This document shows, in pieces, positions 2,168 to 48,463 of a DNA stretch of 64,000 nt. The stretch covers positions 2,071,042 to 2,135,041 of the forward strand of contig JAMWFC010000055.1 in NCBI GenBank assembly GCA_027475525.1. Reading direction: 5' to 3'. Each line of letters begins with the position of its first letter. The stretch's first letter is position 1. The translations under genes were made by a program, and so were the position numbers. The notes beneath the pieces are model-generated. The model had not been told where the DNA came from. It searched no databases and saw nothing but the letters and a program-made list of their open reading frames with translations. This DNA comes from Macrolepiota albuminosa (Eukaryota; Basidiomycota; Agaricomycetes; Agaricales; Agaricaceae).

Positions 2168-2671
2168 TGATACGCCTGTCTCATATCAGAGACAGAGGCT
2201 GAGAAACGACATATATTTTATTCTATTTAAAATGTCGTAAGTCCATACGAGATAGCTGAAAACTGTAAGCTCTCGTAACGGTCGAAAACCGTAGACCGGG
2301 ACACACGCGCACCTCAGGACGCCCACTACCACATCACCAGACCACCCAGCAAGCACCCAAGACGACGAAAGCAATGACAAAACGGCAACACGGCAGGATC
2401 TGATGGCAACGCGATCACGGCCTAAATCACCGAGATCAAAGCCATCAGACGATCGTGACCCGATCATGATCGAAATTCGACACACACCTTGTCATTTCCT
2501 TGACCTTCCACGTATTGCCACTACTCTGGTGACAACGCCACCAACCCCACCGCAGTACTACGACGAAGGCTCCAGGAGAAGAACAGAGGAGGGAGGGAGG
2601 AAACCGAAGCAGGGAGAAGAAGGGAGGAAGGATTAGCCTTGAAAAGGGTGACCACGTGCACCAGGGAACGG
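2168..2671 (+). repeat. 5' LTR of element A, first part
   Basis: Matches 22444-22947 of the 3' LTR except one base (CACGTGC here, CACGCGC there). It stops at ACGG, where element B begins. The same ACGG reappears at 13319-13322 after B, and the intact 3' LTR shows the site with a single copy. This LTR is therefore split by a B insertion with a 4-bp duplication. Confidence 0.93.
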
Positions 2672-3517
2672 TGTAGTACTTGGTGTGAGTATTACTGATA
2701 GTTCTGGGGCTTGATGGTGTAGAAGGTTACTTGCAGTGCACACTGACTTGATGATGAAATTGATATATTTGAAGGCTTTCAATAATCTTCCTGAAAGCAG
2801 AGGGTTCTCAACAAACTCCAGCCTAAGTGATTCACTCCCTGGGAACCACCGAGCCTTTGCCTATCAATTGCCTGTCTATTCTCTACTAAACTTGGGCTAT
2901 TTATACTGTTTTTCTGGTGCACAGACCACTATCTACACATGACTCTTTTGTTGTCAACTCTCCAGCCTCCAGAACATATTTGATAGTCCAATTTCCCTTT
3001 TGGGAGGCATGTTTCGGTGCCACCAGTTCCACCATTCAACTTCTTGTTCCACCATTCCTCCGGATGTCTCTGATTGCCACTTCCCCATTTGCTTCAGCTC
3101 CATTTAGCACGATCCCATTCATAGATCCTTCTTTCCCCTTTTAGCGCTTCCCTGCATTCCATGCTTCTTTTGACATCCCTCCATGCTTCTTTTCCTTTCC
3201 CCTTTCAGTCATGTCAAATCGGGCATTGTCAGATCTGATCTTGATCTAGATCATCACAAATTGATCCCATTTCGTCACTTCTGCCAGCTCCCATGCTTCC
3301 CCTCCCCATTACAGTGGTTGGACTATTGTTGTGTTGATAGCTTGAGCTGGTCCCTGCCCTTTGTTCTGTACTGTCTGTGTATTTATTGGGGTGTTTTTGG
3401 AGATATAATTTGTTGAGACTGCTACCAGGAGGCTTACAGTTTTCAGCCCATAATTAAATGTTTATTTTGACTTCTGGTGCATGTTGTGTCCCTGACTGCT
3501 GGTACAGCGTCGTATCA
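2672..3517 (-). repeat. 3' LTR of element B
   Basis: 846 bases reading TGTAGTACTTGG...CGTCGTATCA on the plus strand, the same as 12473-13318 by eye. A related solo LTR of this family is at 43002-43911. Confidence 0.95.
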
Positions 3518-3530
3518 TCTCCCCCCCACC
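3518..3530 (-). promoter_or_regulatory. polypurine tract of element B
   Basis: On the minus strand the 13 bases just before the 3' LTR read GGTGGGGGGGAGA, the expected plus-strand primer of reverse transcription. It fixes the minus orientation of B. Confidence 0.8.
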
Positions 3531-3730
3531 AAATAAAGACTGTCCTCAGTCATTCACAGTTCCAGATTAGGTTAAGTCCCATTTCTTTGCCATAATGTCA
3601 ACATTTTTGTCTGAACCTCCTGTAATGTTGTGAGGTTTCTTTTGCATGTTTTTGCTGCCTCCCCTGTCGCTCCAAAGGCCATTTAAACCCTCCTTATTGT
3701 CCACCACATCCTCACTTCACCATTCCCCCC

Positions 3731-4999
3731 ATGGCTCCTCCTACTGGTCCTAAAAGACCCCTTGGTCCTGACCCTTATTCTCTCCTTGAAAGCGCCATCA
3801 TCCGGGACAAGGATCAACAAATAAAATCCGTCAAATATATTGCCGCCTTTAGCACTGCTGTCACACGTCTCTGTGAGGAAGCTCTTGCCAAAGAGGCACC
3901 GATTCTAGTATCCCGGCATGTCGGAGCAGCTGAACTTGTGCGTTGTTTCTATTTTTGGAGCTTGTTCCAAATTTAACTTTGTATGCATTGCCCCCAGAAC
4001 TTTGTGGATCACTCCGACTTCCCCCTCATTGCTGAGCAGTCTGGCCTTTACAACATTCTCTACAAGGTCCAGGACCGCATCGAACGTCGACTTGCCCAGA
4101 CTTCTTCCAATATCAAAAATTGGTGTATTTTTGCGGACTCGATTCTTAAATTAATCAATGATCGCCGTGCCGAAGAAGCTGCCAAACAAGCTGCACACGA
4201 AGCCAAAGAGCGCGCTGAGGTCACTCTTTGCTTTGTCCATCACCATTCCCTTCTCACCCTTCCTGTTGCTCCAGACCCGCCGCCGTGAGGATGCCCGCCG
4301 TGCGCGTGACCGTCGCCAGGAGCGTGACAGCGACGTAGAGATGATGAGTGCGTCATCTCCCCGTCCTGTCAAGCGCAAGGCTAACGACGTGAGCTTCCTT
4401 CCATTTCAGAGATTCAAATCGACGAATTGTTCACGCGATTTGCTCATTTTTCGCTTTCTCTCCAGCCCACGCCTGAGGCAGCACCCGACTCCAAGAGGCC
4501 ACGGTTTCAATCCTCTGTCGGTGCGTCTCTTTTTCCTTTCTCACACAAAACCCATTTCATTTTTGCTGTCTTAGCCTCGTACCGTCCCGATGGCTCTTGT
4601 GCACAGACTCTCCTCGACGAAACCGATCGCATTCTAGGCAAGGACGGCAAAGTTTCTCGTACTACGCTTCGCGACTACCTTCAGGTACTCGATGACGCCG
4701 CGTGCCAGCAACTTTTTACGCTGGATCTCGCACAGCAACGCTTCAAGCAACTTGTTGCGCGTCGCGAGGCCGTACGGACCGCCCTTGATAATCAGGCTCT
4801 TTCCGATGCAGAGATCCGCATCGGAGAGCTCCAAGTCGGCTCTCCTTCCAAATCGGTTCGTTCTCTTTAGCTTTCTCTGCTCCGTCTCGCACTCATTCCT
4901 TCTATTTCCCAGCCAGCCGTCGAAAGCCCGGATGTTGAGATCCCTGGGCCGGATTCCAAGGAGGACGAGGTAAATAATGCTATTGAGGCAGCCTTGTAG
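3731..4999 (+). CDS. spliced antisense gene of element B (unknown function)
   Basis: An intact six-exon gene opposite in direction to gag-pol, between pol and the 3' LTR. Exons are 3731-3937, 3998-4219, 4275-4388, 4466-4520, 4575-4855 and 4913-4999, all joined by GT-AG introns that keep the frame, for 321 residues. The ATG is the first in the frame (MAPPTGPKRP). The protein has a helical first part, a strongly charged stretch in exon 3 rich in RR and RD, a possible nuclear signal (PVKRKAND), a second helical part ending near FKQLVARRE, and an acidic tail. A homologue with the same exon plan is in element A. A TTTAAA motif and CT-rich DNA precede the ATG, so transcription may start between the LTR and the gene. 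Role unknown; a regulator of the element or its RNA is one inference. Confidence 0.82.
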
Positions 5000-6129
5000 T
5001 TACACGGTATATTCGTTACTACTACGCTGCCCAATAGACTTAATTTCCTCGCGCAATAACTTGAGTTCGACGCCTTTAATTTGCGTGACGTAGTAGTGAT
5101 GTAAGTCTTCTTGATCGATCATGATCAGCCCTGCTGATCCGATGATCCGAGCCGCCAGCACTTCTTTTCGGCTCGCTATTTTTGTTTCAGCTTCTTCCCG
5201 TCGTTCCGATCACCCGGGGAAGCCTGCTTCTTTTCGCTTCCCCCACCTCGGACCGTCATTCCCACTACTCGGCTCCCTTTTTATCCGATCGTGTGGGGTA
5301 ACTCTTTGTTTTTCCCCCCACACTGACCGCTTGGTGTGCGTCTCCTAGCTTCACTCCCTGTCTCCCTTACTCATCCTCTATTGCCATGGGCGCCTTGCCA
5401 GGGAGACCACCCCTCGTCACACCTCCCACTCAGTTCTCGGTCATTGCCATCAAGTTCTTCCGATCACGCGGAACAACGGAACTTTTGCTCTGTTCCATTA
5501 TCCGGACACGTCTGGGAGATCACAGCTGTCTCAGAACTCTTTCGCCTCCCCTGCACCTCTTCTTATCCCCTTTTACTCGCTTTCGACGTCTTGTGGACGA
5601 CATCTCCTTCAGCTTTTTACGTTTCAACTGTACGTGGACTCCCATCAGTAGATCTGCGGACCGCGCGTTTGATTCTGACTTAGCGCGTTTTCGTGCGCAA
5701 GTCCTCAATTCTTTTGCGCTACTCCGTAGACACAGGGTCTTGTCCCGTAGTTCAACCAATATATTCCTTGCCCTGTTCCCCTTATTCAGAGTCCAGCACT
5801 GGCAAACTTTGACCACACATTTATCCATCCACATGTGCCCAACGTGCCGCCGACAGTACGCGCGACCACGTTACATAAGCAGGTGCACCGACGATTTCAG
5901 CTGACGTCGATGTGACCAGTACGCGGTCACGTTTCCAAGAACGCGCGACTCAGCACGTCAGCAGCGTAACAACGCGTGCTCGTTGTGCCAACCCTCTTCT
6001 CATTCCCACCACTTCTGTCCAAAACCCATGTAGTTGGTTTGTAGCAACTGTACTAGTTATTGTACAATGCCAATACATGTTTTCTGCACTTTCTCCCTCT
6101 AGTTCTGCCAGAACCTAAGGAAGACTGAT
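5000..6129. other. non-coding stretch of element B between antisense gene and pol
   Basis: About 1.1 kb between the tail-to-tail ends of the antisense gene and pol. It is CT-rich on the plus strand with only short shadow frames. It probably holds the 3' ends of both transcripts. No repeat of more than a few bases was noticed. Confidence 0.5.
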
Positions 6130-9100
6130 TTATTCTTCCTGTTCTTCTCCTAAGTGTACACCCCTGAGATAGAGGTCTTCCTCCACTTGTCCTTCCTGTT
6201 TCTCCTCCCTTAACTCTTGTAGTTTAGAGGGAGTAATATCAATCCACTCCTCAATACTGGTAGGCAGAGTGATTTGCTGCCTAGCCTTGTAAGGTATAAC
6301 CCTAAAGGCAGCCACCCTCTCTTGCCACACAGTACCATCCAACTCTGCCACTATGTAGTTCCCTCCTTTAGTCCTAGTCAACACTACCATAGGTCCCCAA
6401 TAGCGAGCAGACATTTTCCCACTTAGAGATTTAGCTGCCACTATATTCCTAACCAGTACTAAGTCTCTTGGCTTGAACTTGTACTCCTTAATAGAAGCTT
6501 CATTTTCTCTTGTGAAGTTCTCTGCCCATCTCAACTTCTCCTTGCTAACTCTAGTCCTCATGTCCTCCACATGCTGGTAGTGCTTTGCCAGTGCTTGAGC
6601 CCTTAAGCCAATTAAGTCTTCTGTAGACACTGGTCCATCAGGCCAGTCTACCAACCAAGTGGCTTCCACTAAGTCCAAGGGTAGTATAGGATGTGCTCCA
6701 GTTACTAAGAAGAATGGGGAACACCCAAATCTCTTTCTAACTGTAATCCTGTCTGCCCACATTACATGCCAAAAGAACCAGTACCACTTGGTTCTGTCTT
6801 CACAGGCTTTATACAAGGCCTGCCTCACATCCCAATGTGGTCTCTCTATCCTCCCATTAGCTCTAGAATTATAGGGAGCAATAGTTATGCCCTGTATCCC
6901 ATACTTCTTAGATAGCCAATGTACCACTTTTGTGAACTGCCCAGCATTATCTGTTACAATGGTGCTTATACAGCCCCATCTACAGATCACTTCTTCAAAC
7001 AACCACTGCCCAATCAACTTGTGGTTATCCTTCTTCAAAGGTCTACCCTCCATCCATGAGGTTAAAGCACACCTCCCATGTACAATATACTTGCACCCAT
7101 TTGAACTTGGTGTCATATGCATGGTATCCAAGTGTATGGTTTCAAATATACTGGGAGTATAGGCTACCACAGGCTGCCTGCATACTGCAACTTTCTGCCT
7201 AACTTGGCAAGCATGACAAGTGTCTATATACCACTTTACATCAGCCTCCATTTCTGGCCACCAAAACCTCTCCTCCAGTAAAGCTTTAGTTGCAAAGGTC
7301 CCTCTGTGACCAAGTGCATCATGAGCAGACTTTAGCATATACATTCTCCTGTCCTTCTCTATGACTAGCTTGTGCTTCCCCTCTTCTCCTCTCTTGTAAA
7401 ACCTTCCCTTGAGATCAAAGAAGAACTGCCTTGCAAATCTAAGAAATTGTCCTTCTTTCACCTCTCTGGGTACCTTTCCAGGATGCCTAAGCCAGTCCTG
7501 TACTAGGGGTAAGAGGTTATCTAAGGATTTCCCCTTCTCAGTTCTCCTCTCTTCCTGGTACTCTTCTACAGTAGAGGCAGAGGGCTTGTCTGGCAGCAAG
7601 AGTGTAGATAAAGTTAAGACTGCTACTGGATTCAGTGTAGTCCCTGCTTTAGTACTCTGCTCTTGTAAGCCTAAGGCTATCCCTTGCTCTCTGTCTCTAC
7701 CCAACCTCACTTCCTCTTGTACATCCTCTGGAGTGACTGCTAACAAGTAGCCTCCTCTTGTATCAATCTCATCCATGAAGTCCTCTAACTTGAGGGGCAC
7801 ATGTTCCTCCCAGCCAGGTACTTTGTTAATCTCATCTGGATACTCAAAGGACATTGGCTTTGGATCATCCAGTAAAGATGAGTCCACAGGAGGATACTCT
7901 TCATCTCCTGGTTGCTTCTCCCTGCGAGATAGACCATCCATACTGAAAGTCTTTCCTGGCACATGCCTCAAGGTGAAGTGATACATAAGTACAGCTTCTA
8001 CCCAGCGCATTATAGTAGCATTAGGTCCTATTCCTGGGTTGCTCAGCATGCCCTTGAGGTATTTAGCATCACTCTCAATGATAAGCTTTCTGCACCCTAG
8101 TAACCAATAACTGCTAACTTGTAATGCCCTCATAAGACCATACAACTCTCTCTTAGGTTGTGAAAACCTAGCCTCCCTCTCATTCAAGGTAATGGACCCC
8201 AGTCTAGCACAAGTCCTCTGTTTTGGATTTGTACTGTCTTCTTGGAAGATCCCAAACCCCACAGCCATCCAAGAAGTGTCTACTGCCAAGATGACAGCAC
8301 CTTCAGACTCATAGTCTATAGGTCTTAGAGCTGCACAACTTGCTAGCCTCCTCTTCATCTCCTTCATGGCCTCCTTCTGTTCTTCTTCCCAGACAAAAGC
8401 CACATCATCCTTAGTGAGCCTATTGATAGGCTCTGAGATCTTGGCATAGTCCTGGATGAACATCCTGAAGGTACCACAAGTTCCCAAGAACTTCCTAACC
8501 TCAGAGACATTGCGGCAGTCTCCCCAACTCATGACCACTGCATATCTCTTTGTCTCTGGCTTGCGCCCCTCATAAGAACACAAGTGACCCACTACAGTGA
8601 TTTCATCTGCACATAGCACAGACTTAGTCCCTGAGAAGGTTCCTCCAGCATACTTGATGCGCTGAACAACTCTATTGACATTGTTCAGGTGCTCCCATAC
8701 AAAGCGCCTAATCCCTTTATTCTCTGCAATAGTCTCATACCCTCCTCCTTCCAACTCATACCTAGTCTCAGGTCCTCTTATTGGAACATCATCAATATAA
8801 GGCCAAGTGACATGAGGTATCTCATCCTGCAAGATATAAGTAACATCATCATGGAAGATGGGAACTGAATTAGTCCATCCCATAGGCAATGTCACCAATC
8901 TCAGAGCTCCATAAGGTGTCTGAAAGGTGGTATAGTCCCTAGACTTAGGGTCCAAAGTCCTTTCATCATATCCAACATAGAGATCACACATCCCACCACA
9001 TGCTCTTCCAGCAAAGTGGTTGGCCAGTTCTTCTGTAGCAGGAGGTACTCCAGAATGAGCTATAGTGACTTTGTTTAGAGGTTCTAAACTGTGCACAAGC

Positions 9101-9864
9101 CTTAGACTTTTCCCATCCTTCTTCAGAACAGCGAACCATTGTGACCTATATGAGGAATTTGACCTCTCATAAACCCCTGCTTCCAACTTCCTCTTAATCT
9201 CCTTGCACAGGTCATTGTACTTCCCAGGAGGTATGGGTCTGTTTTTCAACACCCAAGGCTGGTGAGGTACTACTGGCATAACAACAGGTGGGAAGTATTC
9301 CTCTTTGAACTTCCCCTTCTGACTGTCATTCCATGCAAAGGCCTCATTCTGCTGCATCATCAACTGGTGCAGTAACTTCCTCTCTTCTGGCCACAGAAAC
9401 TCCCCTTCATGTGCTTGGTCAATAATCTGTTTGCACTCCTCTGTGTACCTCCCAGTAGGTCTGAATTCAGGTGGATGTGGACTCAAAGGTGGCATGTCCT
9501 TTAAAGGATCCCCAGTGATATTCCTTTCTATCCTGAACTCCTCTGGTGTAGTACCCAACACAGGTCTAACTTTCTTGGCAACAGGCTTATATTTCCCAAA
9601 CACTTGTACAGTTTCCTCCTGGCTTTTCTCCCCCCCACTCTTTAACTCTTCAGGTAGGTAGCCTAGCTCTCCATTCAGGTAAGCTCCCAGCAACTGCCCT
9701 GTCCTTTCTCCTTCTCTTCCAGTAGCATGGTAAGCAGCCAAGTACACATCTCTGAGTTCTTGCTGCTCAAAACTCTTCTCCTTGACACAGTACCCCTTGA
9801 TCCAGAAACCTTCCTCCTCACTCCCCTCTATCATCACAGCAGCCTCTCCTTGATCTGGGATCAA
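6130..9864 (-). CDS. pol: element B pol: reverse transcriptase, RNase H, integrase
   Basis: About 1244 residues, cytoplasmic replication enzymes of the retrotransposon. The reverse-transcriptase part contains VLKKDGKSLRLVHSLEPLNK and the catalytic box PYIDDVP (YxDD type). RNase H follows (AVDTSWMAVGFGIF, ESDAKYLKGML). The integrase has the zinc-binding HDALGHRG...CHACQ and the catalytic residues in IHLDTMH, TDNAGQF and NGRIERPHWD (D, D, E). Near the C-terminus RYWGPMVVL...VAAFRVIPYK resembles the GPY/F module. The frame is in the -1 register relative to protease and overlaps it by four bases. There is no ATG at the start (TTG), so it is most likely made by a second -1 frameshift. All key residues are present. 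Confidence 0.92.
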   Translation of the reverse strand: MIPDQGEAAVMIEGSEEEGFWIKGYCVKEKSFEQQELRDVYLAAYHATGREGERTGQLLGAYLNGELGYLPEELKSGGEKSQEETVQVFGKYKPVAKKVRPVLGTTPEEFRIERNITGDPLKDMPPLSPHPPEFRPTGRYTEECKQIIDQAHEGEFLWPEERKLLHQLMMQQNEAFAWNDSQKGKFKEEYFPPVVMPVVPHQPWVLKNRPIPPGKYNDLCKEIKRKLEAGVYERSNSSYRSQWFAVLKKDGKSLRLVHSLEPLNKVTIAHSGVPPATEELANHFAGRACGGMCDLYVGYDERTLDPKSRDYTTFQTPYGALRLVTLPMGWTNSVPIFHDDVTYILQDEIPHVTWPYIDDVPIRGPETRYELEGGGYETIAENKGIRRFVWEHLNNVNRVVQRIKYAGGTFSGTKSVLCADEITVVGHLCSYEGRKPETKRYAVVMSWGDCRNVSEVRKFLGTCGTFRMFIQDYAKISEPINRLTKDDVAFVWEEEQKEAMKEMKRRLASCAALRPIDYESEGAVILAVDTSWMAVGFGIFQEDSTNPKQRTCARLGSITLNEREARFSQPKRELYGLMRALQVSSYWLLGCRKLIIESDAKYLKGMLSNPGIGPNATIMRWVEAVLMYHFTLRHVPGKTFSMDGLSRREKQPGDEEYPPVDSSLLDDPKPMSFEYPDEINKVPGWEEHVPLKLEDFMDEIDTRGGYLLAVTPEDVQEEVRLGRDREQGIALGLQEQSTKAGTTLNPVAVLTLSTLLLPDKPSASTVEEYQEERRTEKGKSLDNLLPLVQDWLRHPGKVPREVKEGQFLRFARQFFFDLKGRFYKRGEEGKHKLVIEKDRRMYMLKSAHDALGHRGTFATKALLEERFWWPEMEADVKWYIDTCHACQVRQKVAVCRQPVVAYTPSIFETIHLDTMHMTPSSNGCKYIVHGRCALTSWMEGRPLKKDNHKLIGQWLFEEVICRWGCISTIVTDNAGQFTKVVHWLSKKYGIQGITIAPYNSRANGRIERPHWDVRQALYKACEDRTKWYWFFWHVMWADRITVRKRFGCSPFFLVTGAHPILPLDLVEATWLVDWPDGPVSTEDLIGLRAQALAKHYQHVEDMRTRVSKEKLRWAENFTRENEASIKEYKFKPRDLVLVRNIVAAKSLSGKMSARYWGPMVVLTRTKGGNYIVAELDGTVWQERVAAFRVIPYKARQQITLPTSIEEWIDITPSKLQELREEKQEGQVEEDLYLRGVHLGEEQEE

Positions 9865-10876
9865 CTCCTCAAGGCTGAAGCTTTTCCCAACTCCTCCTTG
9901 TTGCCACCAGGGGGTGCCTTGCCTCTCTCATAAGTTGGCAGTGCAGTCCTCTTCCCAGTATTAGGATCCCTGATAGTGATGATTGCACTACCATCCTTCA
10001 AGTTCTGCACATTACTCTCAGTGGCTGTATCAAATGGCCTCCCCAGTAATACTGTATAGGCAGGTTTCTCAAATATATGCACTTGCAAGTATATTGTGAA
10101 ACCCTCAGCAAACTTGAAGGGCACATTCTTGGCCATCCCCAAAGACTCATTAACCTGCTGATTGGCACTCTCCATGCGCAACCTTATATCAGGATCCCAA
10201 GTCAATCTCAGACTTAATGCCTTGTCCAAAGCCATGCACACAATCTGAGACCCACTGTCCAATATAGCCTCCACCTTAGCTTGGTCATTCACACTAGGGT
10301 ACAGAGACCTCAACACTTGCAAGTCTCTGGCCACATAGACCACTTCTGGCCTATCCCCTGGTGGAAGCTGTTCCAAGAAGGTAGCCACACAGTCCTCATG
10401 AACCACTGATCCCTTTGGAACCCCTTCTTCTTCACTCTGAGAGATATGGTACCCTGGTTGAGGCAAGTCATCTATATTGACCTGGCTCATTACAGAGGCA
10501 CTTCTATCCTCCTGTGCAAAGACCTTGGCAGCTGTCCACTTGGTAGCACCTTCCCTCCTCCTCCAAGTCTTCTCCAGAGCCTCCTGCAAGGCTGGCACCT
10601 TCAACAATTCCCTTGTAGAAATTGTCACCTCATTGTCCAATATTTTGCTGACAATCTCATCTTCCCTTCTCTGCCATACTCTGGGCTGATACAACTCTTT
10701 CTTGTCACTTTGAAATTTTACTATTTTCTCTCCATTGACAGCAGGCACCTGCTCAAAGGGCAGGTTCCCTTTGCCTACTTCTATAACTCCCCTTTGCCTT
10801 TTTAGATCACTCTCAGGTGGTAGTGGTGTCCTCAATTCAGGCTGGACTCTTCCATCTGCCACCATCCTTGAGTTCT
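9861..10876 (-). CDS. pro: element B protease (retropepsin) frame
   Basis: A frame of about 338 residues between gag and pol, in a register different from both. An ATG exists at 10865, but the frame is open back to the gag stop, as expected for entry by -1 frameshifting. The catalytic motif is AILDSGSQIV near the middle, followed by YTVLLGRPFDT, which fits the ILG-type second motif of retropepsins. It would cleave the Gag-Pro-Pol polyprotein. The first 150 residues are basic and proline-rich and not recognised. Confidence 0.88.
9882..9888 (-). promoter_or_regulatory. candidate -1 frameshift site, pro to pol, element B
   Basis: On the minus strand the pro codons read TTG GGA AAA GCT, which contains the canonical slippery heptamer G GGA AAA in the right register. 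The pro stop TGA lies 19 bases further on. After the slip the pol frame reads KSFSLEELIPDQGE, which aligns with the pol start of element A. Confidence 0.6.
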
Positions 10877-12367
10877 CTAAAAACCCTCCTGCTTCTGCTG
10901 GGTGTTCTTCTCATAAGTCTGACTCCTAGTAGTTATCAGACTTGCCACCAAGCTCTGCAGCTCCTCTATCTTCTTCTCTAAATCCTCTTTCTCTTTGGGC
11001 ACTGCCTGCACATATGTAGACACACTAGGCACAACAGTGACTGGCTCTTCAACCCAGCCATAGAAGGCAGCAGCCTTAGGATCCATGATAGCATTGACCC
11101 TCTCTTTGGGAGACACATTAGGTGGACTCCTGGGAATGGGCTCCCCAGAAGGTAGCCTAGGCCTGCCTTCAAAGAGGATGAGCTTGCCTTCTTGGACTTG
11201 AGTCTTGAGATATTCACAGTCATTGGTCCTGTGTCCCAACTCCCAACAGTGATAACAATTTATTCCAGCAGCTGAACTGCTGCCTCCTGGAAACTGAACA
11301 GTCTGCAAAGCCTGAGCAGGCATCCCCAGCCTAGTCTGCAGACCCCCCTGCATAGAAACCTGGCTCTTTGCCTTCCACTCATTGTTCATGGTCTGCATGA
11401 ACCCCCTCAGACTGCTCATCTCCTTCCCCAGAGCCATGACTCCATCCTGGAGGTTAGCTAACCTCCCCTCAGTCTCCAAATCTGGCTCTTGCTTGACCTT
11501 GATCATCCCTGGGACCTTCTCCTGTGGACTGTCATTGTCCCTGAATGAGGTTCCAGAATCAACCAAAATAGCCACCACATTGATGATTTCCTTCAGATCA
11601 TATCTATCATCCTTGTGTCTCCTCCTGGTTATGTCACTATAATGACCATATTTTTGCAAGGCCTGGGCCAGAATAAGTTCCCTGAAGGCTGGGGTGAAGC
11701 ACTTAGTGAACTTCTCAACCAGTGCCCCATTCCCAAGCACCCCCTTCAACTTCTTGGCTTCAGCCCTAAACTTCCTGACCAGTGCATGGATCTCTTCTGT
11801 GTCATTCTGTCCCAACCTTGCATGCTCTCTACAGATCCTGTCAAGTACTGCCACACTCCCCTCATCAGAGATTGCCTCTGGGTAGGAATCTTGGACCTCC
11901 TTGACAAAGACCTCCCAACTTGACTCATCACTAAAACTGTCCAATCCCCTCCACTCACTGTCTGTCTCTGCATCCACATACTCTGTCACCCTCTCCTTTC
12001 TCTCCCCAGCATCATTAATCCCTGCAGCCTTGAAGAGACTCTCCATCTTTCTGAGGAAGCGCCTGACTTCAGTGGGCTGTGTGTGGGTGAACCTAGGTGC
12101 ATCTCTGCTTGTAGACAGAGGCAATTTTTGTCTTGTAACTTCTGGCATTTTTGATAGATTTGTACTTGTAATTTTGATAGTTTTGGATGTTGGCTTTCTG
12201 CTTGATCTCAAGACTTGTTCAGGGTCCCCAACACTATTGAGTGTGGTGGTCTTGCTGCTCCTGGTAGTGGGCTTGTGTGCTTGCTCCCTAGGACTGACCT
12301 TTTGCTTGGGCACTGTCCTCTTTAGCTTCTCTGGGGTTGACCCTCTTGGTGCAAATGAAATCTTGAA
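10877..12367 (-). CDS. gag: element B gag
   Basis: Capsid-nucleocapsid precursor of about 490 codons. The first ATG is at 12148, but the frame is open from 12367. The extra N-terminal part is basic and similar to the corresponding ATG-less part of A (ISFAPRGS here, ISFAPPGS there). The middle is a helical gag region (RDAPRFTHTQPTEVRRFLRK). Near the C-terminus one zinc knuckle is seen: CYHCWELGHRTNDC (CX2CX4HX4C). A short coiled-coil-like end (KEKEDLEKKIEELQ) precedes the stop. It ends at the frameshift site into protease. Non-AUG initiation or a spliced leader would be needed for the extension. Confidence 0.88.
   Translation of the reverse strand, partial: FKISFAPRGSTPEKLKRTVPKQKVSPREQAHKPTTRSSKTTTLNSVGDPEQVLRSSRKPTSKTIKITSTNLSKMPEVTRQKLPLSTSRDAPRFTHTQPTEVRRFLRKMESLFKAAGINDAGERKERVTEYVDAETDSEWRGLDSFSDESSWEVFVKEVQDSYPEAISDEGSVAVLDRICREHARLGQNDTEEIHALVRKFRAEAKKLKGVLGNGALVEKFTKCFTPAFRELILAQALQKYGHYSDITRRRHKDDRYDLKEIINVVAILVDSGTSFRDNDSPQEKVPGMIKVKQEPDLETEGRLANLQDGVMALGKEMSSLRGFMQTMNNEWKAKSQVSMQGGLQTRLGMPAQALQTVQFPGGSSSAAGINCYHCWELGHRTNDCEYLKTQVQEGKLILFEGRPRLPSGEPIPRSPPNVSPKERVNAIMDPKAAAFYGWVEEPVTVVPSVSTYVQAVPKEKEDLEKKIEELQSLVASLITTRSQTYEKNTQQKQEGF
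10880..10886 (-). promoter_or_regulatory. candidate -1 frameshift site, gag to pro, element B
   Basis: The last gag codons are GAG GGT TTT TAG. G GGT TTT is a canonical slippery heptamer and is followed immediately by the stop codon. The equivalent place in element A has G GAT TTT TGA, another heptamer of the known slippery class. The position at the very end of gag and the conservation support use. Confidence 0.7.
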
Positions 12368-12451
12368 TTAAGCTTGAGGTGAACCTGACTTGCTGGTCCA
12401 CAAATGAACTTGATGACAGTGTTTCTTGTTGGTAAACTTTCTAAGCCAAAG

Positions 12452-12470
12452 CCCCTCGCGGTGGGCTCCA
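12452..12470 (-). other. primer-binding site of element B
   Basis: On the minus strand TGGAGCCCACCGCGAGGGG starts two bases after the 5' LTR. It would pair with the 3' end of a tRNA finishing GGTGGGCTCCA. The same 19 bases stand at the equivalent place in element A. I cannot name the tRNA with certainty. Confidence 0.75.
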
Positions 12471-12472
12471 GA

Positions 12473-13318
12473 TGTAGTACTTGGTGTGAGTATTACTGAT
12501 AGTTCTGGGGCTTGATGGTGTAGAAGGTTACTTGCAGTGCACACTGACTTGATGATGAAATTGATATATTTGAAGGCTTTCAATAATCTTCCTGAAAGCA
12601 GAGGGTTCTCAACAAACTCCAGCCTAAGTGATTCACTCCCTGGGAACCACCGAGCCTTTGCCTATCAATTGCCTGTCTATTCTCTACTAAACTTGGGCTA
12701 TTTATACTGTTTTTCTGGTGCACAGACCACTATCTACACATGACTCTTTTGTTGTCAACTCTCCAGCCTCCAGAACATATTTGATAGTCCAATTTCCCTT
12801 TTGGGAGGCATGTTTCGGTGCCACCAGTTCCACCATTCAACTTCTTGTTCCACCATTCCTCCGGATGTCTCTGATTGCCACTTCCCCATTTGCTTCAGCT
12901 CCATTTAGCACGATCCCATTCATAGATCCTTCTTTCCCCTTTTAGCGCTTCCCTGCATTCCATGCTTCTTTTGACATCCCTCCATGCTTCTTTTCCTTTC
13001 CCCTTTCAGTCATGTCAAATCGGGCATTGTCAGATCTGATCTTGATCTAGATCATCACAAATTGATCCCATTTCGTCACTTCTGCCAGCTCCCATGCTTC
13101 CCCTCCCCATTACAGTGGTTGGACTATTGTTGTGTTGATAGCTTGAGCTGGTCCCTGCCCTTTGTTCTGTACTGTCTGTGTATTTATTGGGGTGTTTTTG
13201 GAGATATAATTTGTTGAGACTGCTACCAGGAGGCTTACAGTTTTCAGCCCATAATTAAATGTTTATTTTGACTTCTGGTGCATGTTGTGTCCCTGACTGC
13301 TGGTACAGCGTCGTATCA
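12473..13318 (-). repeat. 5' LTR of element B
   Basis: 846 bases, matching the copy at 2672-3517. On the minus strand it starts TGATACGACGCTG and ends AAGTACTACA, followed by TC and the primer-binding site. Confidence 0.95.
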
Positions 13319-13322
13319 ACGG

Positions 13323-13775
13323 AGGAACCATTAGCCCCAAACCCGGGCTCGGTACCATGCTAACCGACTGCCTGGGCACGGCAAAATCACAGACTGACAA
13401 CGAAACACGCGCAATACGCAATGGTCCGTGCGTAGTGGGAGTGAGTATAAGAAGGGTGGTAATTTGGGGGAGTCGGGCAAGTAATCGACTTGCCACGGCT
13501 CGGAGTCCCCAGGGAGCGGACGTCTTAGGCCTACGAGCGACTAGATTTACTTCGGGTTTTAGTAATAATACTATTTTGACCCATTTCGAGTGTAAACTTT
13601 AAGTTTTTCATTCAAATAAATCAATTAAAAATTATAATCACTTTCTACAAAGTGCGCGCGCGTGTAACGTTGCCCCACGTACTCTGTGAAGTTGGGACAG
13701 TTGAACTACAACAAAGTTTAGTCTAAATTACATTTTGGACTACTTTAAATAAAGTAAACTACCCATTTCGCATCA
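13323..13775 (+). repeat. 5' LTR of element A, second part
   Basis: Continues the 3' LTR copy from 22948 to its end at 23400 with two differences seen (AGACTGACA/AGACCGACA and GGGAGTGAG/GGGAGTGGG). It ends CGCATCA and is followed two bases later by the primer-binding site. Confidence 0.92.
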
Positions 13776-15392
13776 TCTGGAGCCCACCGCGAGGGGGCTT
13801 TTGTTGCACAAACAAACACTTTGTCGGACTTCCATTTGGAGTCCAAAAACCCAAAAAGAAACATTAGTTTCGCACCGCCAGGTTCTTGGCCCGGCACGCC
13901 TAAGGTTACTACACCAAGGGCAAAAACCATTATTTCTCCCAGGAGAAGAGAAACTCGTGCATCCTCCAAGGGCACAGTTGCTAGTCTCCCGGATCCAGAC
14001 GTTGTACTTCGTAAACGAAAACTTCGGACTGAGAAGTACACGCCTACACCACAAACACCTAAGTCTTCATTGCCTGAGCCAACTAAGTTGACCAGCATTA
14101 TGGAGCAACCTATGCGCTATAAAATGCCATTGCCTGAAAGTAGAGATGCACCTAAGTTCAGAAGCAGTGAGCCTGCTGAGGTTCACAGGTTTCTGCAGAG
14201 GATGCAGTCTCTATTCAATCATGCAGGCATTGTGGAGGATGGAGAGAAGAAGAAGAGGTTATTAGAATATGTGGATGCAGAAACTGAGCAGGAATGGAGA
14301 GGTTTCGATAGTTTTGAGGATAGATATCCTTGGGCCACCTTTATAAAGGAGGTTAAGGAATCATACCCTGAAGCTATGGATGAGGCAGGAAGCATGGCAA
14401 ACCTGGATAGGATCTGTAGGGAGCATGCCAGGCTAAGCAGAGGGGATGCCCCTGAGCTGCACTCCTTAATCAGAAAATTCAGGGCTGAAGCCAAAAAGCT
14501 GGACAGTGTTGTAGGGAATGGGGTATTGGTGGATAAGTTTATGGGGTGTTTTACACCTACCCTGGCAGAGTTAGTGGAGGAGAGACTCATCCACAAACAT
14601 GGCCATTACAGGGATCCTGCTCGTAATCGTCACAAAGACAACAAGTATGACTTGTCTGAAGTGATTGCAGTGGTGACAGCCCTAGTAGATGGGACAACTG
14701 TCAGGAAAACTAGGGGAGAGACCACCAACAGGGAGGTGGGTGGAGTAGTAGTGAAAAATGAGGAGGCAGAAGAGAGGATGGCTCATCTGCAAGACTCTAT
14801 GGTCACTATTGGGAAGCAGGTTGGCAGCATCCAAAGTGCTATGCAGGCTCTGCAAAATAGCCAACTGGACATAAGGAATGCCTTCCTAACTACCAAAAGC
14901 CACCATGGAGGGCAAACAGAGAGGCCTGCTCAGGCCATGATGCCAACACCTGGTGGAAGCACATACTGCTTCTACTGTTGGGGAACTGGTCATCGTATAG
15001 CTGAGTGTGAGCAGGTGAAATCAGATGTGCAAAAGGGATGGGTGATACTAGTAGATGGGAGGACTAGAATGCCCAACAGAGCACCTCTACCCAGAGAGCC
15101 CTCCAGTATATCACCACATGATAGGGTGATGAAGTTACATGACTCTCAAGTGGGGTTATACTTTGGCTGGGCTGAGGAAGCTCAAGACATCCCAACCTAC
15201 TCTACTTACACCAATGCTGTGAGAGATACTAGGGATGACATGTTGGAGCGCATCCAGCATGGAGAGGCAGACAGGCTGGGAGAACTGGAAAAAGGCTTTC
15301 AAAGACTGACAGAAGTCATGTCAGTCTTAGTCAACACCAGACATGCTCCTAGTCCTGGGGAAGGGCAACCAGGAGGGTCCAAGGATTTTTGA
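13776..15392 (+). CDS. gag: element A gag
   Basis: The frame is open from inside the LTR edge (13758) through the primer-binding site to the stop at 15390-15392. The first ATG is only at 14100. Upstream of it the translation is basic and conserved with B (SFAP.GS), so the protein may start earlier by non-AUG initiation or a spliced leader. From the ATG it has about 430 residues. The gag helical core starts RDAPKFRSSEPAEVHRFLQ, and there is one zinc knuckle CFYCWGTGHRIAEC (CX2CX4HX4C). The end AAG GAT TTT TGA carries the slippery heptamer G GAT TTT at 15383-15389, from which protease can be reached in the -1 frame. Confidence 0.88.
   Translation, partial: SGAHREGAFVAQTNTLSDFHLESKNPKRNISFAPPGSWPGTPKVTTPRAKTIISPRRRETRASSKGTVASLPDPDVVLRKRKLRTEKYTPTPQTPKSSLPEPTKLTSIMEQPMRYKMPLPESRDAPKFRSSEPAEVHRFLQRMQSLFNHAGIVEDGEKKKRLLEYVDAETEQEWRGFDSFEDRYPWATFIKEVKESYPEAMDEAGSMANLDRICREHARLSRGDAPELHSLIRKFRAEAKKLDSVVGNGVLVDKFMGCFTPTLAELVEERLIHKHGHYRDPARNRHKDNKYDLSEVIAVVTALVDGTTVRKTRGETTNREVGGVVVKNEEAEERMAHLQDSMVTIGKQVGSIQSAMQALQNSQLDIRNAFLTTKSHHGGQTERPAQAMMPTPGGSTYCFYCWGTGHRIAECEQVKSDVQKGWVILVDGRTRMPNRAPLPREPSSISPHDRVMKLHDSQVGLYFGWAEEAQDIPTYSTYTNAVRDTRDDMLERIQHGEADRLGELEKGFQRLTEVMSVLVNTRHAPSPGEGQPGGSKDF
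13778..13796 (+). other. primer-binding site of element A
   Basis: TGGAGCCCACCGCGAGGGG begins two bases after the 5' LTR end and is the same as that of element B although the LTRs differ. The gag reading frame runs open straight through it. Confidence 0.75.
15383..15389 (+). promoter_or_regulatory. candidate -1 frameshift site, gag to pro, element A
   Basis: G GAT TTT in the gag register, directly before the stop TGA. The protease frame overlaps the gag stop and lies in the -1 register. The equivalent site in B is G GGT TTT TAG. Confidence 0.65.
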
Positions 15393-16414
15393 GGAGCTCA
15401 ATGAAGAAAATGGGGGAAGCTCCACCAGGAATACCCACATTGACAGAGAGGCAGCCACAAAATTCCTGGAAAGAAAAGCTAACTTTGAGGATTCCACCCA
15501 AAGTGGCACCCAAGTTGGACTTACCTTTTGAAAAGGTGCCAGCTTTGAATGAGAGGCAGGAGGTACCAGTGCAGGACACTGGTAGGAGTTCCATTCAGGG
15601 AACTAGGAAGGAGTTGGAGAAGATGGTTGAGAAGCTGTGGGAGGTACCAGTGCCACTAACCACCAGAGAACTTCTGGATGTGGCACCTGGTTTGAGGGAG
15701 GTCATGGTACAAAAGTTAGTACCAAAGCCTCCCAGGCCTAAGGAACCCAATATTCCTAGGACAGCTACTCAACACCTGACAGCAGTGGAGAAAGAGCCTA
15801 ACAAGGTAGATGTTAATGATCTACCTATGGCCACCTACTTCATTGCAGATGGAACACAATCTGGCTTGCCTACTGGTGCAGTAGTGCACCAGGATTGTGT
15901 TGCCACTTACTTGGAAAATATCCCAACAGGAGAAAAGCCAGTAGTGGTATATGTAGCTAGGGAGCTGCAGGTTCTGAGATCTCTCAACCCAGTTGTCAAT
16001 CAAAAGGGAAGAGCAGAGGCAATTCTAGATAGTGGATCTCAAATAGTCTGCATGGCTTTAAGGGAGGCTCTCAATCTAGGATTGACTTGGGATCCAGACA
16101 TTAGGCTAAGGATGGAGAGTGCCAATCAGCAAGTGAATGAATCTGTTGGTTTAGCACGTAATGTGCCATTCACTTTTGCAGAAGGGTTTACTATCTATCT
16201 ACAAGTGCACATTTTTGAAAGTCCTGCTTATACTGTCTTATTGGGTCGTCCATTTGACACCTTGACAGAGAGCAACATTCAAAACTTGCAGGATGGCAGT
16301 GCCATCATCACCATTCGAGACCCTAATACAGGTCGTCGAACTGCCCTGCCTACTATTGAAAGAGGCAAAATGCCAAAAGCAGGGGCTGCTAGGGAGAGTG
16401 AAGCAAAATTTTGA
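15389..16414 (+). CDS. pro: element A protease (retropepsin) frame
   Basis: 341 codons in the -1 frame relative to gag, overlapping its stop by four bases. It has the catalytic AILDSGSQIV and the later YTVLLGRPFDT, both shared with element B. The N-terminal 190 residues are proline- and lysine-rich and diverged from B. There is no ATG at the frame start, so it is expected as part of a Gag-Pro fusion. It ends in GCA AAA TTT TGA, where pol opens in the next -1 register. That second junction is not a canonical slippery heptamer here, unlike in B. Confidence 0.87.
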   Translation: MRSSMKKMGEAPPGIPTLTERQPQNSWKEKLTLRIPPKVAPKLDLPFEKVPALNERQEVPVQDTGRSSIQGTRKELEKMVEKLWEVPVPLTTRELLDVAPGLREVMVQKLVPKPPRPKEPNIPRTATQHLTAVEKEPNKVDVNDLPMATYFIADGTQSGLPTGAVVHQDCVATYLENIPTGEKPVVVYVARELQVLRSLNPVVNQKGRAEAILDSGSQIVCMALREALNLGLTWDPDIRLRMESANQQVNESVGLARNVPFTFAEGFTIYLQVHIFESPAYTVLLGRPFDTLTESNIQNLQDGSAIITIRDPNTGRRTALPTIERGKMPKAGAARESEAKF

Positions 16415-19400
16415 GTCTCGAGGAACTGGTTACAGACCAGGGAGAGATTGCAATAAGTCTTGCTGAGACTCAGGAAGGGGAAATTGTGGTGACTGGATAT
16501 TCTAGGGAACATAGTAAATTCAGTCAGGAAGAGTTGAGGGATGTGTACTTGCATGCTTTTACAGCAAGCAAGGGGTGTGAAGAGAAGGAGCAGAAGACAT
16601 TGTCAGCATATTTGAATGGGCATTTAGCTCAAATACCTGACAGTCTTGAGGAGCTGCTAGTACAAGAGGAAAACTTAGAGTCAAAAGCAGGTGTGGGGGA
16701 GACTGCCCAAGTATTTTCTAAGAAATACAAACCTGTGGCTAGAAAAGTTAAGCCTGTACTAGGTACCTCACCTGAGGAGTTTAGAATTGAGAGGTGCATT
16801 ACTGGAGACCCACTGGCAGACATGCCTCAGTTGGATCCCAATCCACCAGAATTCAAACCCACAGGGAGATACACAGCTGAGTGCAAAGAAGTCATTGACC
16901 AAGCCCATGGTGATGGTTTTCTTTGGCCAGAGGAGATGAAGGCAGTACACCACCTTATGATGCTGCAAAACCAGGCTTTTGCATGGGATGATGCTCAAAG
17001 AGGAAGGCTGAAGGAGGAATTCTTCCCTCCAGTAATCATGCCAGTAATACCTCACACCCCTTGGGTGTTGAAAAACATTCCTATTGCACCAGGTCTTAGG
17101 GATAGAATCTGCCAAATGATAAAGCAGAAGATTGAGGCAGGGGTCTATGAACCCTCTAACTCCTCATATCGCTCCCAATGGTTTACAGTATTAAAGAAGG
17201 ATGGTGAAAGCTTGAGGATAGTCCATAGCTTGGAGCCTTTGAATAAAGTGACCATAGCACATTCTGGGTTGCCACCAGCAACTGAAGAATTAGCTAGTCA
17301 CTTCTCAGGCAGGGCTTGTGGAGGAATCTTTGACTTGTATGTAGGATATGATGAGAGAGTACTAGATGTGCGCTCTAGAGATTATACTACATTCCAGACA
17401 CCATTTGGTGCTCTGAGGTTGGTTACCTTACCAATGGGATGGACAAATTCAGTGCCTATCTTCCATGATGATATTACATTCATCTTGAAGGATGAGATAC
17501 CACATGTAACTTGGCCATACATTGATGATGTACCAGTCAGAGGGCCACCTCATAGATATGAGCTACCAGAGGGTGGTTGTGAAGTCATACCAGAGAATCC
17601 AGGCATCAGGAGATTTGTATGGGAACACCTACTCAATGTGAATAGAGTGTTACAAAGAATCAAATATGCAGGAGGGACTTTCTCTGGAAAGAAGTCAGTA
17701 GTATGTGCAGATGAGATTGTGGTTGTTGGCCATAGATGCTCTTATGAAGGGCAGAAGCCAGAGACCAAGAGATTTGCCATAGTAATGGGATGGGGTGACT
17801 GCAGGGATAAACATGAAGTAAAGTCATTCTTAGGGACCTGTGGTACCTTTAGATCCTTTATCAAGGACTATGCTAAGGTAGCAGCACCTATCAATAAGCT
17901 TACTCAGAATAATGTACCTTTTACTTGGGGAGAAGAACAGCGCTCTGCAATGGCACAAATGAAAAAGTTGCTAGCAGAAAGTGCTCCTTTAAAACCCATT
18001 GACTATGAGTCAGGAGGTGCAGTAGTTCTGTCAGTGGATACATCCTGGATGGCAGTGGGTTTTGGAATCTTCCAAGAAGACCCAGACAATCCTAAAATGC
18101 GCACTTGTGCCAAGTTAGGATCTATCACCCTGAATGAGAGAGAAGCTAGATTTTCTCAACCAAAAAGAGAGCTATATGGTCTCATGAGATCTCTGCTAGC
18201 CAACAAGCATTGGCTAGTTGGTTGTAGAAAACTAGTAATAGAGACAGATGCCAAGTATCTTAAAGGGATGCTAGGGAATCCAGGAGTAGGACCCAATGCC
18301 ACTATCATGAGATGGATTGAGAATGTCCTACTCTACCACTTTACCTTAAGGCATGTGCCAGGCAAAACATTCAGTGTGGATGGATTGTCAAGGCGGCCTA
18401 AGCAGCCAGGAGATGAGGAGTACCCACCAGTTGATCCTGAGTTAATGGATGAACCCAAGTCTATGAACTATGAGTATCCAGACAAGATCAATAATGTACC
18501 TGGTTGGGAGGACTGGGAACCTTTGGAACTTGAAGAGTTTGCAGATCAAATTGACACTAGAGGTGGCTATCTAAACATGGTAGCTACTGAAGTATCAGAC
18601 TTTGAGCAAGAACTTTGTAAAGCCAGGTCCCAAGAGCAGGAGCTTAGGGATGGCATCTTGAGTCAAACACCAGGGACAAGCATAAACCCAGTAGCAGTAT
18701 TAGCTATGACCATGCCTCTGTTACCAGTAGAAGACCAAGAAGTCAGAGTAGAGGACACACAAACCTACCTAGAACACAGGAAAGGTAGTGAGGGTGAGGA
18801 CTGGGATAATCTGCTACCCACTGTTCAGAGTTGGTTGCAAGACCCAGGTACAGAACCCAAGAATCTACAAGGCTGGGATCTAGAGAAGTTTAAGAAGTTT
18901 GCTAGGCAATTCTTCTTTGACAAAAAGGGGAGATTGTATAAGCGCTGTCATGAGGAGAAACATAAACTAGTAGTCCAAATTGATAGACGAATGTTCATGC
19001 TTAAATCAGCCCATGATGCCTTAGGACATAGAGGAGCCTATGCTACCAGAATGCTCATACAGGAGCGCTTCTGGTGGCCTGGCATTGAAGGAGATGTACA
19101 GTGGTATGTTGGGACTTGTCACAATTGTCAAATCAGACAAAAGACAGTAGTCAACAGGGAACCAACTGTAACTTATACTCCCTCCATCTTTCAAACAATT
19201 CACATTGATACCATGCACATGACACCAGCTTCCAATGGCTGTAAGCACATAGTACATGGCAGGTGTGCCTTGTCTTCTTGGATGGAAGGTAGACCCCTGA
19301 GGAAGGAAAACCATAAGACCATTGGTCAATGGTTGTTTGAGGATGTGATTTGCCGCTGGGGCTGCATTGCAGAAATCATCACAGATAATGCTGGACAGTT

Positions 19401-20235: not shown

Positions 20236-20970
20236 AAATCAAGGAAATGAACTATGATATATTTCAAAAGAAATAATAATGGTTCAGTACTACTTGAAAA
20301 TCTTAACAGTATAAGGCAAAAAGGGGGTTTTGACAGTAGGGAGAGGCACTCAAGCAAGGTGCTAAGCTCAGTCAGGCTGGCTACCACTTGAATACAGAAA
20401 GATTTCTGGATTTAAGTCCATGAACTAATTAAGTTTATTACGGGACATGGGCACAAAAAAGTACCAATGTACGATTTTAAAAACTAAGAAGTTATGGCTT
20501 AATGAGGGTTAGCATATAGGCCTAAAGGCACCGACGTTCTAGTACGAACCTAGTCCGTGAGCTAAGAAAGAGCCGAGCGTTGGCGCAATATGTCAGCACG
20601 CGAGTTCGAAACTGGTCAAGGGACAAAAGTTCTACATAGACGTAGGCGTAACAAGCCAACGCACGAGTTCGAACCCAGCAAAGAACTGAAAACGTTGACT
20701 AAAATAGTAAGCATTCAAGTTCGAAACTGAGGAAAAGGACCAAAATAAAGCATAAGGGGTCAGCGTGTCGAGGGTTCGAGCCCCAGGAGAAGCTAAATAA
20801 ATTCAAAGAGAGAGCGAAACGCGTTATTAAGTCTTAAAAAGGACTTAAGGTTCACGCATGTCGGGCTTTAAGGAATTTATTAAGGTACTACGGATTAGAG
20901 AAGGGGAGGGGGAGTATTATGAGACTACGCTAAGCAAAGACAGAACCTGTGCTTACAACGCGGTGGACGT
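20236..20970 (+). other. non-coding tail of element A with repeated GTTCGA motifs
   Basis: About 735 bases between the ends of pol and the antisense gene. Four GTTCGA(A/G) motifs stand at 20604, 20667, 20719 and 20774, each in a context like CGAGTTCGAAAC or GGGTTCGAGCCCC. They resemble the internal B box of RNA polymerase III genes. A stretch before the first (TTGGCGCAATATG) is loosely A-box-like. No complete tRNA cloverleaf could be drawn. The rest is A-rich and unremarkable. Confidence 0.4.
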
Positions 20971-22240: not shown

Positions 22241-22431
22241 AAGCCTCGCAGATGGCATGATCAGTCATTTTGTACAGTGGCGGCTGTGATCGGGGAAGAG
22301 AAAAATAAGAGGGAAATGCGCGGGAGGTAAAAGAGAGAAAAACTTTTGTGTGAAAAAGTTTCCTGCCGAAGCCAAGAGGAAGTCGAACGCATAGTCAGGT
22401 TGGCGTGCTGACTGGGGGCAGTCAGTAGATG

Positions 22432-22443
22432 GTGTGGGGGAGG
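22432..22443 (+). promoter_or_regulatory. polypurine tract of element A
   Basis: GTGTGGGGGAGG stands directly before the 3' LTR. It is the expected priming tract for plus-strand DNA and agrees with the plus orientation of A. Confidence 0.65.
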
Positions 22444-23400: not shown

Positions 23401-23404
23401 CTAG

Positions 23405-28530: not shown

Positions 28531-28577
28531 TGCAATGCAAATAGAACAAAGAAAGCAAATCATCTCTTATTCAGAAG

Positions 28578-48307: not shown

Positions 48308-48463
48308 CCGCTTACTGCGCTGATGCTCTCAAACCTGCATGGCTCAAATGTCTACCACATGATCCTTAATCTCCCAATACTGTTGGTAAAGAATGTCTTC
48401 CCCTTCTGGGTCAATACGTATATCCGCATTGACATAGTGATGAGCCTCATGGGCTTTATCCTG

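Follow-up and report, generated by a model that had tools for sequence, protein, structure and literature searches.

A conserved antisense gene with introns, and a likely choice between two isoforms, in Ty3/gypsy retrotransposons of Macrolepiota albuminosa

Introduction

Antisense accessory genes of long terminal repeat (LTR) retrotransposons have been known for years, from plants and from one fungal element. Here we describe such a gene in two Ty3/gypsy elements, A and B, located in a 64,000-nucleotide stretch of the Macrolepiota albuminosa genome (hereafter the window; assembly GCA_027475525.1, contig JAMWFC010000055.1, positions 2,071,042 to 2,135,041 of the forward strand), together with its relatives in the same genome. 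The source paper for brtn of Boty, the fungal case, is said to be that of Zhao et al. (2011, Virology 417:248). Among complex retroviruses, Rev/Rex-type proteins unite a nuclear localization signal (NLS) and a leucine-rich nuclear export signal (NES) in one shuttling regulator; the A and B genes differ in being antisense and in that the corresponding signals, recognized as patterns only, would sit in alternative isoforms, which we call X and Y.

In the passages that cite it, brtn is an extra antisense gene of Boty-like Ty3/gypsy elements in Botrytis cinerea (PMC7264820, PMC8365987, PMC4227169). The gene studied here is likewise an additional antisense gene in a fungal Ty3/gypsy element, a likeness drawn from descriptions only, and the differences are that brtn belongs to an ascomycete host, that the Boty product has a chromodomain, and that the citing passages mention neither a multi-intron structure nor isoforms. 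The statement in the original prediction, made by a model from the letters of the window, that no such gene was known in fungal gypsy elements was wrong, since brtn of Boty-like elements is one (PMC7264820, PMC8365987). In plants, GENE23 of the maize Grande element is described as nuclear with its own promoter, and Retand elements as carrying antisense open reading frames (ORFs) with a TRP28 domain (PMC7264820, PMC11963269). These systems differ from ours in their plant hosts, the passages cited mention no introns or isoforms, and TRP28 (PF04195) was not listed by Pfam at E up to 1 for isoforms X and Y of A or B.

HBZ of HTLV-1 occurs in a spliced and an unspliced form with different N-termini, and HBZ and the APH genes of HTLV-2 to 4 resemble our gene as spliced antisense genes near the 3' LTR, with a product reported there as nuclear (PMC10186651). 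They differ in belonging to vertebrate retroviruses and, for HBZ, in the bZIP domain, which Pfam did not list for isoforms X and Y of A or B, whereas the A and B genes appear to have five introns and, inside the gene, a choice between mutually exclusive splicing events. The VANC proteins, anti-silencing factors encoded by VANDAL elements of Arabidopsis, are reported to diverge together with their noncoding targets (PMC5735166, PMC10398659). They too are element-encoded accessory proteins, and their divergence with their targets is comparable to that of the gene and LTR described below; VANDAL elements are DNA transposons for which, according to those texts, binding and demethylation have been demonstrated, whereas here only the co-variation of exon 1 with the LTR was measured. 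None of the titles and abstract openings listed in literature searches described this gene family, and no search was aimed at NLS/NES isoform switches.

Results

Structure of the antisense gene in elements A and B

Each of the two elements contains a six-exon gene on the strand opposite pol, between pol and the 3' LTR, that translates without a stop. The exon coordinates and translations listed here confirm the gene as first proposed, including intron phases (0,0,0,1,0) and a 55-base exon 4 common to A and B.

Element B:
3518..3730, +, leader, from the 3' LTR border (polypurine tract) to the start codon
3731..3937, +, exon 1
3998..4219, +, exon 2
4275..4388, +, exon 3 (isoform X); end at 4347 in isoform Y
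4348..4409, +, alternative intron of isoform Y, with donor GTGCGT, branch site CTAAC at 4381-4385 and acceptor AG at 4408-4409
4410-4465, +, segment Y, coding in isoform Y only; KIQIDELFTRFAHFSLSLQ
4466-4520 (isoform X) or 4410-4520 (isoform Y), +, exon 4
4575..4855, +, exon 5, mostly helix in the structure model
4913..4999, +, exon 6 including the stop

Element A:
21953..22240, -, exon 1
21709..21900, -, exon 2
21573..21650, -, exon 3 (isoform X); end at 21611 in isoform Y
21562..21610, -, alternative intron of isoform Y, 49 bases, with donor GTACGC and branch site CTAAC from 21577 downward
21561-21497, -, segment Y; ARKLDLVVRRLDTLTLSLPPPQ with a split codon
21496-21442 (isoform X) or 21561-21442 (isoform Y), -, exon 4
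21103..21392, -, exon 5, with the conserved donor
20971..21045, -, exon 6 including the stop

In B all five introns are GT-AG and isoform X has 321 codons. All isoforms are open in the window, at 321 (X) and 326 (Y) amino acids in B and 325 (X) and 334 (Y) in A. The intron of isoform Y overlaps intron 3 of isoform X in both elements (4348-4409 with 4389-4465 in B, 21562-21610 with 21572-21497 in A). Exon lengths are 207/222/114/55/281/87 in B versus 288/192/78/55/278/75 in A, the latter with exon 5 ending at the donor noted earlier (21392-21115), which yields 321 codons; a conserved donor 12 bases downstream, which reads GTAYGT or GTGAGT in many relatives and is preceded by synonymous changes, yields 325 amino acids. 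Because the exon lengths differ and the conserved donor of A lies 12 bases further on, the shared figure of exactly 321 codons, originally taken as a sign of conservation, is a coincidence. The start of A is uncertain, with an in-frame ATG 12 bases upstream. From the start codon to the inner border of the 3' LTR there are 213 bases in B and 203 in A; the B leader holds a TTTAAA 49 bases 5' of the ATG, and this leader with the adjoining LTR is the presumed site of the antisense promoter.

The A and B proteins are well diverged, as had been claimed, and homologous, with 30-32% identity over 282-287 amino acids and thus most of their length (about 31%; best BLASTP E 2e-33; hhalign probability 99.5). 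Two peculiarities were seen in single copies: the donor of intron 2 of A (21708-21651) is GC, against GT in all 30 other A-type rows of the alignment, and at locus L022 intron 5 is 179 bases long, because part of exon 5 is tandemly duplicated together with its donor.

Copies in the genome and selection on the protein

The source genome (100 Mb) holds at least 46 matches to the B gene and at least 44 to the A gene, corresponding after hand-merging of adjoining pieces to at least 40 B and at least 40 A loci without overlap, at least 80 in total. We sampled 51 loci, including the window's own two (L001 and L009), and aligned the 44 copies that covered enough of the gene (13 B-type and 31 A-type). 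The gene lay opposite to pol and beyond its 3' end in all 44 loci with a pol match, the remaining seven loci being five taken without flanks plus L004 and L034; LTRs were checked fully for A and B of the window only. Five of the loci (L015-L019), on five contigs with different flanks, encode identical antisense proteins with equal match scores, which we read from the sequences as a sign that a family with an intact gene has multiplied very recently.

Comparison of these copies revealed selection at the level of codons. The 13 B-type copies, drawn from about 40 loci and including the eight best matches, are the better-kept part, and several other B-type loci hold stop-bearing pieces. Among these 13, exon lengths change by multiples of three in every copy and intron lengths by single bases, all 65 introns are GT-AG, and 12 copies have no internal stop. 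In the A type, 22 of 31 copies are open from their own start to their stop, with stops, frameshifts or lost ends in the other nine. The median pairwise ratio of nonsynonymous to synonymous divergence (omega, dN/dS) was 0.17 over 71 B pairs and 0.12 over 115 A pairs, computed only for pairs with dS between 0.05 and 1.5 and, in A, leaving out 13 copies (nine decayed and four with a start unaligned to that of A). In a set of 18 A-type copies, omega was 0.11 for the antisense gene versus 0.09 for the pol tail, and exons 1, 2 and 5 each gave a ratio of nonsynonymous to synonymous differences per site (pN/pS) of 0.19-0.29 in the gene frame.

On this evidence, many related gypsy elements of this one genome carry a protein-coding gene with introns that is kept by purifying selection similar to that on the pol tail. 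Two marks of the antisense accessory genes of LTR retrotransposons (aORF-3R) were found, namely conservation as a protein in most copies (12 of 13 and 22 of 31 open, omega about 0.1-0.2) and a place antisense to pol, between it and the 3' LTR (44 of 44 loci). The proposal of a conserved antisense coding gene under long-term selection is thus borne out by median dN/dS values of 0.17, 0.12 and 0.11; dN/dS near 1 with most other copies broken, named in the original prediction as what would speak against it, was looked for and is not what the copies show. Also supported is the suggestion that introns in an antisense gene can persist through retrotransposition, because the genomic RNA is sense.

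We also considered an overlapping gene on the sense strand and rejected it, as in exons 1, 2 and 5 every sense frame is closed in at least some of the kept copies. These frames are open in zero to two copies, except in A exon 2 with 9 and 11 of 18, a test biased on openness because the copies had been selected for an open gene frame. In each exon one sense frame gives a pN/pS of 0.29-0.38, always above the gene frame, as would be expected where its codon positions mirror those of the gene. The ORF at 5386-5904 in the B spacer was likewise rejected as a second antisense gene, since four of eight B-type loci with flanks lack most of it. Divergence of the B introns lies below dS, which may result from CpG-context transitions together with the low complexity of the introns.

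Evidence for a second isoform

Intron 3 of A is as conserved as the exons (mean pairwise identity 0.77 versus 0.51-0.58 for the other introns). In the frame that continues into exon 4, its segment Y has a pN/pS of 0.28 in A and 0.09 in B, and none of 500 column shuffles was as low in A or in B; among control intron frames the best gave 12 of 200. The splice sites that would make segment Y coding are kept as well (A-type counts exclude L031): an inner donor GT of matching phase in exon 3 is present in 26 of 26 A and 13 of 13 B copies, the inner branch site CTAAY in 25 of 26 and 13 of 13, and the inner acceptor AG in 26 of 26 and 12 of 13. The branch site falls within the codons of a KRRAN or KRKAN motif. 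Of 102 fourfold degenerate sites in A, variability is lowest at the two where the splicing model predicts constraint, the T of the donor and the T of the branch site, each unchanged in 24 copies, with one further site tied at the lowest value and a median entropy of 1.31 bits.

For isoform X, 22 of 26 A copies have a donor that reads GTAAG (20 copies), GTGAG or GTAGG, and all 13 B copies have GTGAG. The part of exon 3 that the Y intron removes, segment X, is also coding in A (core pN/pS 0.43; 1 of 500 shuffles as low). The branch site of the Y intron and the donor of the X intron are adjacent in A and three bases apart in B, and because the introns overlap, with the branch site of one set against the donor of the other, the two splicing events exclude each other. 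Together, these patterns strongly indicate a pre-mRNA that can be spliced in two mutually exclusive ways. A correction to the first description is that what was called intron 3 would be coding in the second isoform.

The choice would change the signals that the protein carries. Isoform X satisfies a bipartite NLS rule in 18 of 26 copies of the A type and 10 of 13 of the B type, isoform Y in 0 of 39. In segment Y, positions 7, 11, 14 and 16, the four positions of a class-1a NES, are hydrophobic in 26 of 26 A and 13 of 13 B copies, and they coincide in both families although the two have little sequence in common there; only 1-2% of shuffled peptides have hydrophobic residues at those places.

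An exchangeable 3' part on a common gag-pol core

The gag-pol region was found to be far more uniform than the antisense gene. Relative to A, identity is 94.8-98.1% from protease to reverse transcriptase (RT) in the 11 sampled loci that cover over 300 bases of this stretch, and 91-97% from RT to integrase in A-type loci, with 68-80% for the antisense gene. Genome-wide, most scored gag matches are 94-99% identical to that of A, with four long exceptions at 89-91%; for long matches to pol the range is 91-98%. When every pair among 21 copies is averaged, identity stands at 0.94 in the pol tail, 0.73-0.77 in the exons, 0.66 in the spacer, 0.54-0.58 in the LTR and 0.52 in the leader, with single pairs close throughout. 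The 18 copies used for dS form 153 pairs, with a median of 0.19 for the pol tail versus 1.28 for the gene, and gene dS exceeds three times pol dS, or is saturated, in 144. Such values can hardly reflect one history and imply that recombination has joined different 3' parts to one core. To judge from these distances, the 3' part made up of antisense gene, leader and LTR behaves as a module that can be exchanged on a gag-pol core shared by the elements.

Within the module, pairwise distances of exon 1 correlate with those of exon 2 (rho 0.80), those of exon 5 with exon 6 (rho 0.46), and those of the LTR with exon 1 (rho 0.48, p 0.001) and not with exon 5 (0.06). One mosaic pair of copies, L030 and L015, is 92-97% identical in exons 4-6, 66-67% in exons 1-2 and 95% in the pol tail, and on these identities has a recombination break inside the antisense gene. 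The gene itself had been correctly recognized in the first account of this locus, which missed the second isoform and the decoupling of the gene and LTR from gag-pol.

Carrier elements and their surroundings

Element B is inserted in the 5' LTR of element A, and its 3' LTR is identical to its 5' LTR.

2672..13318, -, element B, Ty3/gypsy, with LTRs at 2672-3517 (3') and 12473-13318 (5')
2668-2671 and 13319-13322, target duplication ACGG flanking element B
6130..12313, -, B gag (10877-12313), protease ORF (9861-10865) and pol (6130-9864)
2168..23400, +, element A, split by B, with 5' LTR at 2168-2671 and 13323-13775 and 3' LTR at 22444-23400
2164-2167 and 23401-23404, target duplication CTAG flanking element A
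13821..20235, +, A gag (13821-15392), protease ORF (15389-16414) and pol (16411-20235), the homogeneous core

Both have the LTRs, gag, protease, RT-RNaseH-integrase order and target duplication of Ty3/gypsy elements. Pfam matched protease, RNaseH and the integrase zinc-binding domain in A and B, the A protease below its cut-off, and listed no RVT_1 in either pol at E up to 1. A YIDD motif (PYIDDVP) was recognized by eye in the RT region of both, and we assign their RT, on the sequence, to a divergent clade. Four-base ORF overlaps were seen in A (15389-15392 and 16411-16414) and between protease and pol of B (9861-9864); expression of gag, protease and pol as three ORFs by frameshift or by stop and restart is possible.

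Elsewhere in the window, a B-type LTR piece (43231-43911, 91% identical to the B LTR) lies near another gypsy element (46922-49231). The region 26869-31589 holds an NACHT/NPHP3-type STAND ORF and, after it, a WD40 ORF in which a 126-base repeat recurs in 19 registered copies; as these are mostly 78-92% alike (one 62%), they have probably been homogenized recently.

Discussion

We think it somewhat probable that the product is an element-specific nuclear regulator with an isoform switch, encoded in an exchangeable module of gene, leader and LTR. Isoform X would keep a basic segment that completes a bipartite NLS-like motif; in isoform Y this would be replaced by an amphipathic, leucine-rich segment that fits a class-1a NES, and the ratio of isoforms would set the nuclear share of the product. 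The regulator would be needed by the element, and its nuclear target would be the LTR, chromatin or RNA of that element; a transactivator, an anti-silencing factor and an RNA-export factor are candidate roles. If the protein were adapted to the LTR or leader of its own element and new combinations were favored, for instance by escape from host silencing, the behavior as an exchangeable module is what one would expect. VANC proteins of Arabidopsis transposons would serve as working model and HBZ as the best structural parallel. Close copies also differ by many CpG-context transitions (for example 43 of 53, 27 of 37 and 41 of 81; the lowest of 14 close-copy pairs are 67 of 265 and 6 of 23; all raw counts without a chance expectation), which hints at methylation as a pressure that the protein may meet.

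Several observations weigh against this interpretation. Transcription and splicing of the antisense gene are inferred from the genome, where no spliced complementary DNA copy was found at the single junction searched, a 90-base B exon 4/5 sequence. Not every sequence keeps segment Y open (20 of 22 distinct ones in A, 8 of 10 in B), and many fourfold sites are invariant in B, so that the test does not discriminate there. The isoform-X donor is lost in 4 of 26 A copies (ATAAG), two of them otherwise open, and B lacks a coding signal in the core of segment X (pN/pS 0.66, a value as low in 284 of 500 shuffles); some lineages may therefore make mainly or only Y. The bipartite NLS and class-1a NES rules applied are general ones from the literature, an NES-like pattern arises somewhere in 12-18% of shuffled Y peptides, and an amphipathic helix of other purpose would show the same pattern. 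Pfam gave nothing above cut-off for isoforms X and Y of A and B, a PDB profile search of the antisense protein nothing with E below 0.1, and the exon-5 structure model, a long helix built from two sequences with a mean predicted local distance difference test score (pLDDT) of 77, no significant match among PDB folds. As to the module, the gene is itself a mosaic (exon 1 versus exon 5, rho -0.11), pol distance correlates weakly with that of the LTR (0.31, p 0.02) and of exon 1 (0.24, p 0.05), and the correlation of exon 1 with the LTR may come from nearness on the DNA alone.

Among other explanations, the protein could be a negative autoregulator of the HBZ kind, which would inhibit sense transcription from the LTR of its own element and restrain copy number, with the modules as immunity groups kept diverse because rare ones escape repression. 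Position and orientation are those of HBZ, whose product is antisense, spliced and nuclear (PMC10186651), and the basic NLS-like clusters and the diversity of modules on a uniform core fit as well. The Pfam search, however, found no bZIP or other DNA-binding domain, and constraint near that of pol is unexpected if losing the gene freed a copy from self-limitation. As the loss of a self-limiting repressor would not hinder a copy's spread, the pol-like constraint favors a factor that aids transposition, and we hold the autoregulator to be rather unlikely. That same constraint, together with the NLS-like clusters and the long predicted helix of exon 5, would also suit a structural or particle accessory protein, for instance one that brings the preintegration complex into the nucleus or serves as an integration tether. 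Such a protein should vary with gag-pol, yet pol and gene distances correlate only at rho 0.12-0.24, one core pairs with many gene types, and the predicted expression from the opposite strand sets the gene apart from particle genes, so that this role seems more unlikely still.

It has been proposed that such regions regulate through antisense RNA (PMC7264820, in the passage cited), and the transcript might act as double-stranded RNA, through silencing or as a long noncoding RNA, with the ORF incidental. Codon-level selection in each exon tested and exon lengths that change in multiples of three show that selection keeps a protein; an antisense RNA without protein function was accordingly rejected, and we regard an RNA-only role as highly improbable, while an RNA effect in addition to the selected protein may exist. 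Introns are unusual in element genes and could point to a host gene captured and kept by the element only recently, or the homology could be due to chance. Two families that are 31% identical with the same intron positions, and the same place in 44 of 44 loci with a pol match, leave this as the least probable of the explanations.

Returning to the nuclear regulator, a bolder version, which we regard as doubtful, is that in retroelements of this clade LTR, leader and antisense gene form a self-contained, swappable control module whose two isoforms, one imported into and one exported from the nucleus and selected by the pair of overlapping, mutually exclusive introns, act only on their own module, and that such modules divide elements on one core into compatibility groups. 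These proposed groups can be likened to immunity regions among temperate phages.

Because dozens of divergent copies, many of them intact, reside in one genome, selection, splicing signals and modularity of an antisense gene can be measured here. Two overlapping introns that would offer an NLS-like or an NES-like isoform give a concrete and cheap handle on function, and the contrast between a uniform gag-pol core and diverse modules of antisense gene and LTR points to where the protein's possible matching partner may lie.
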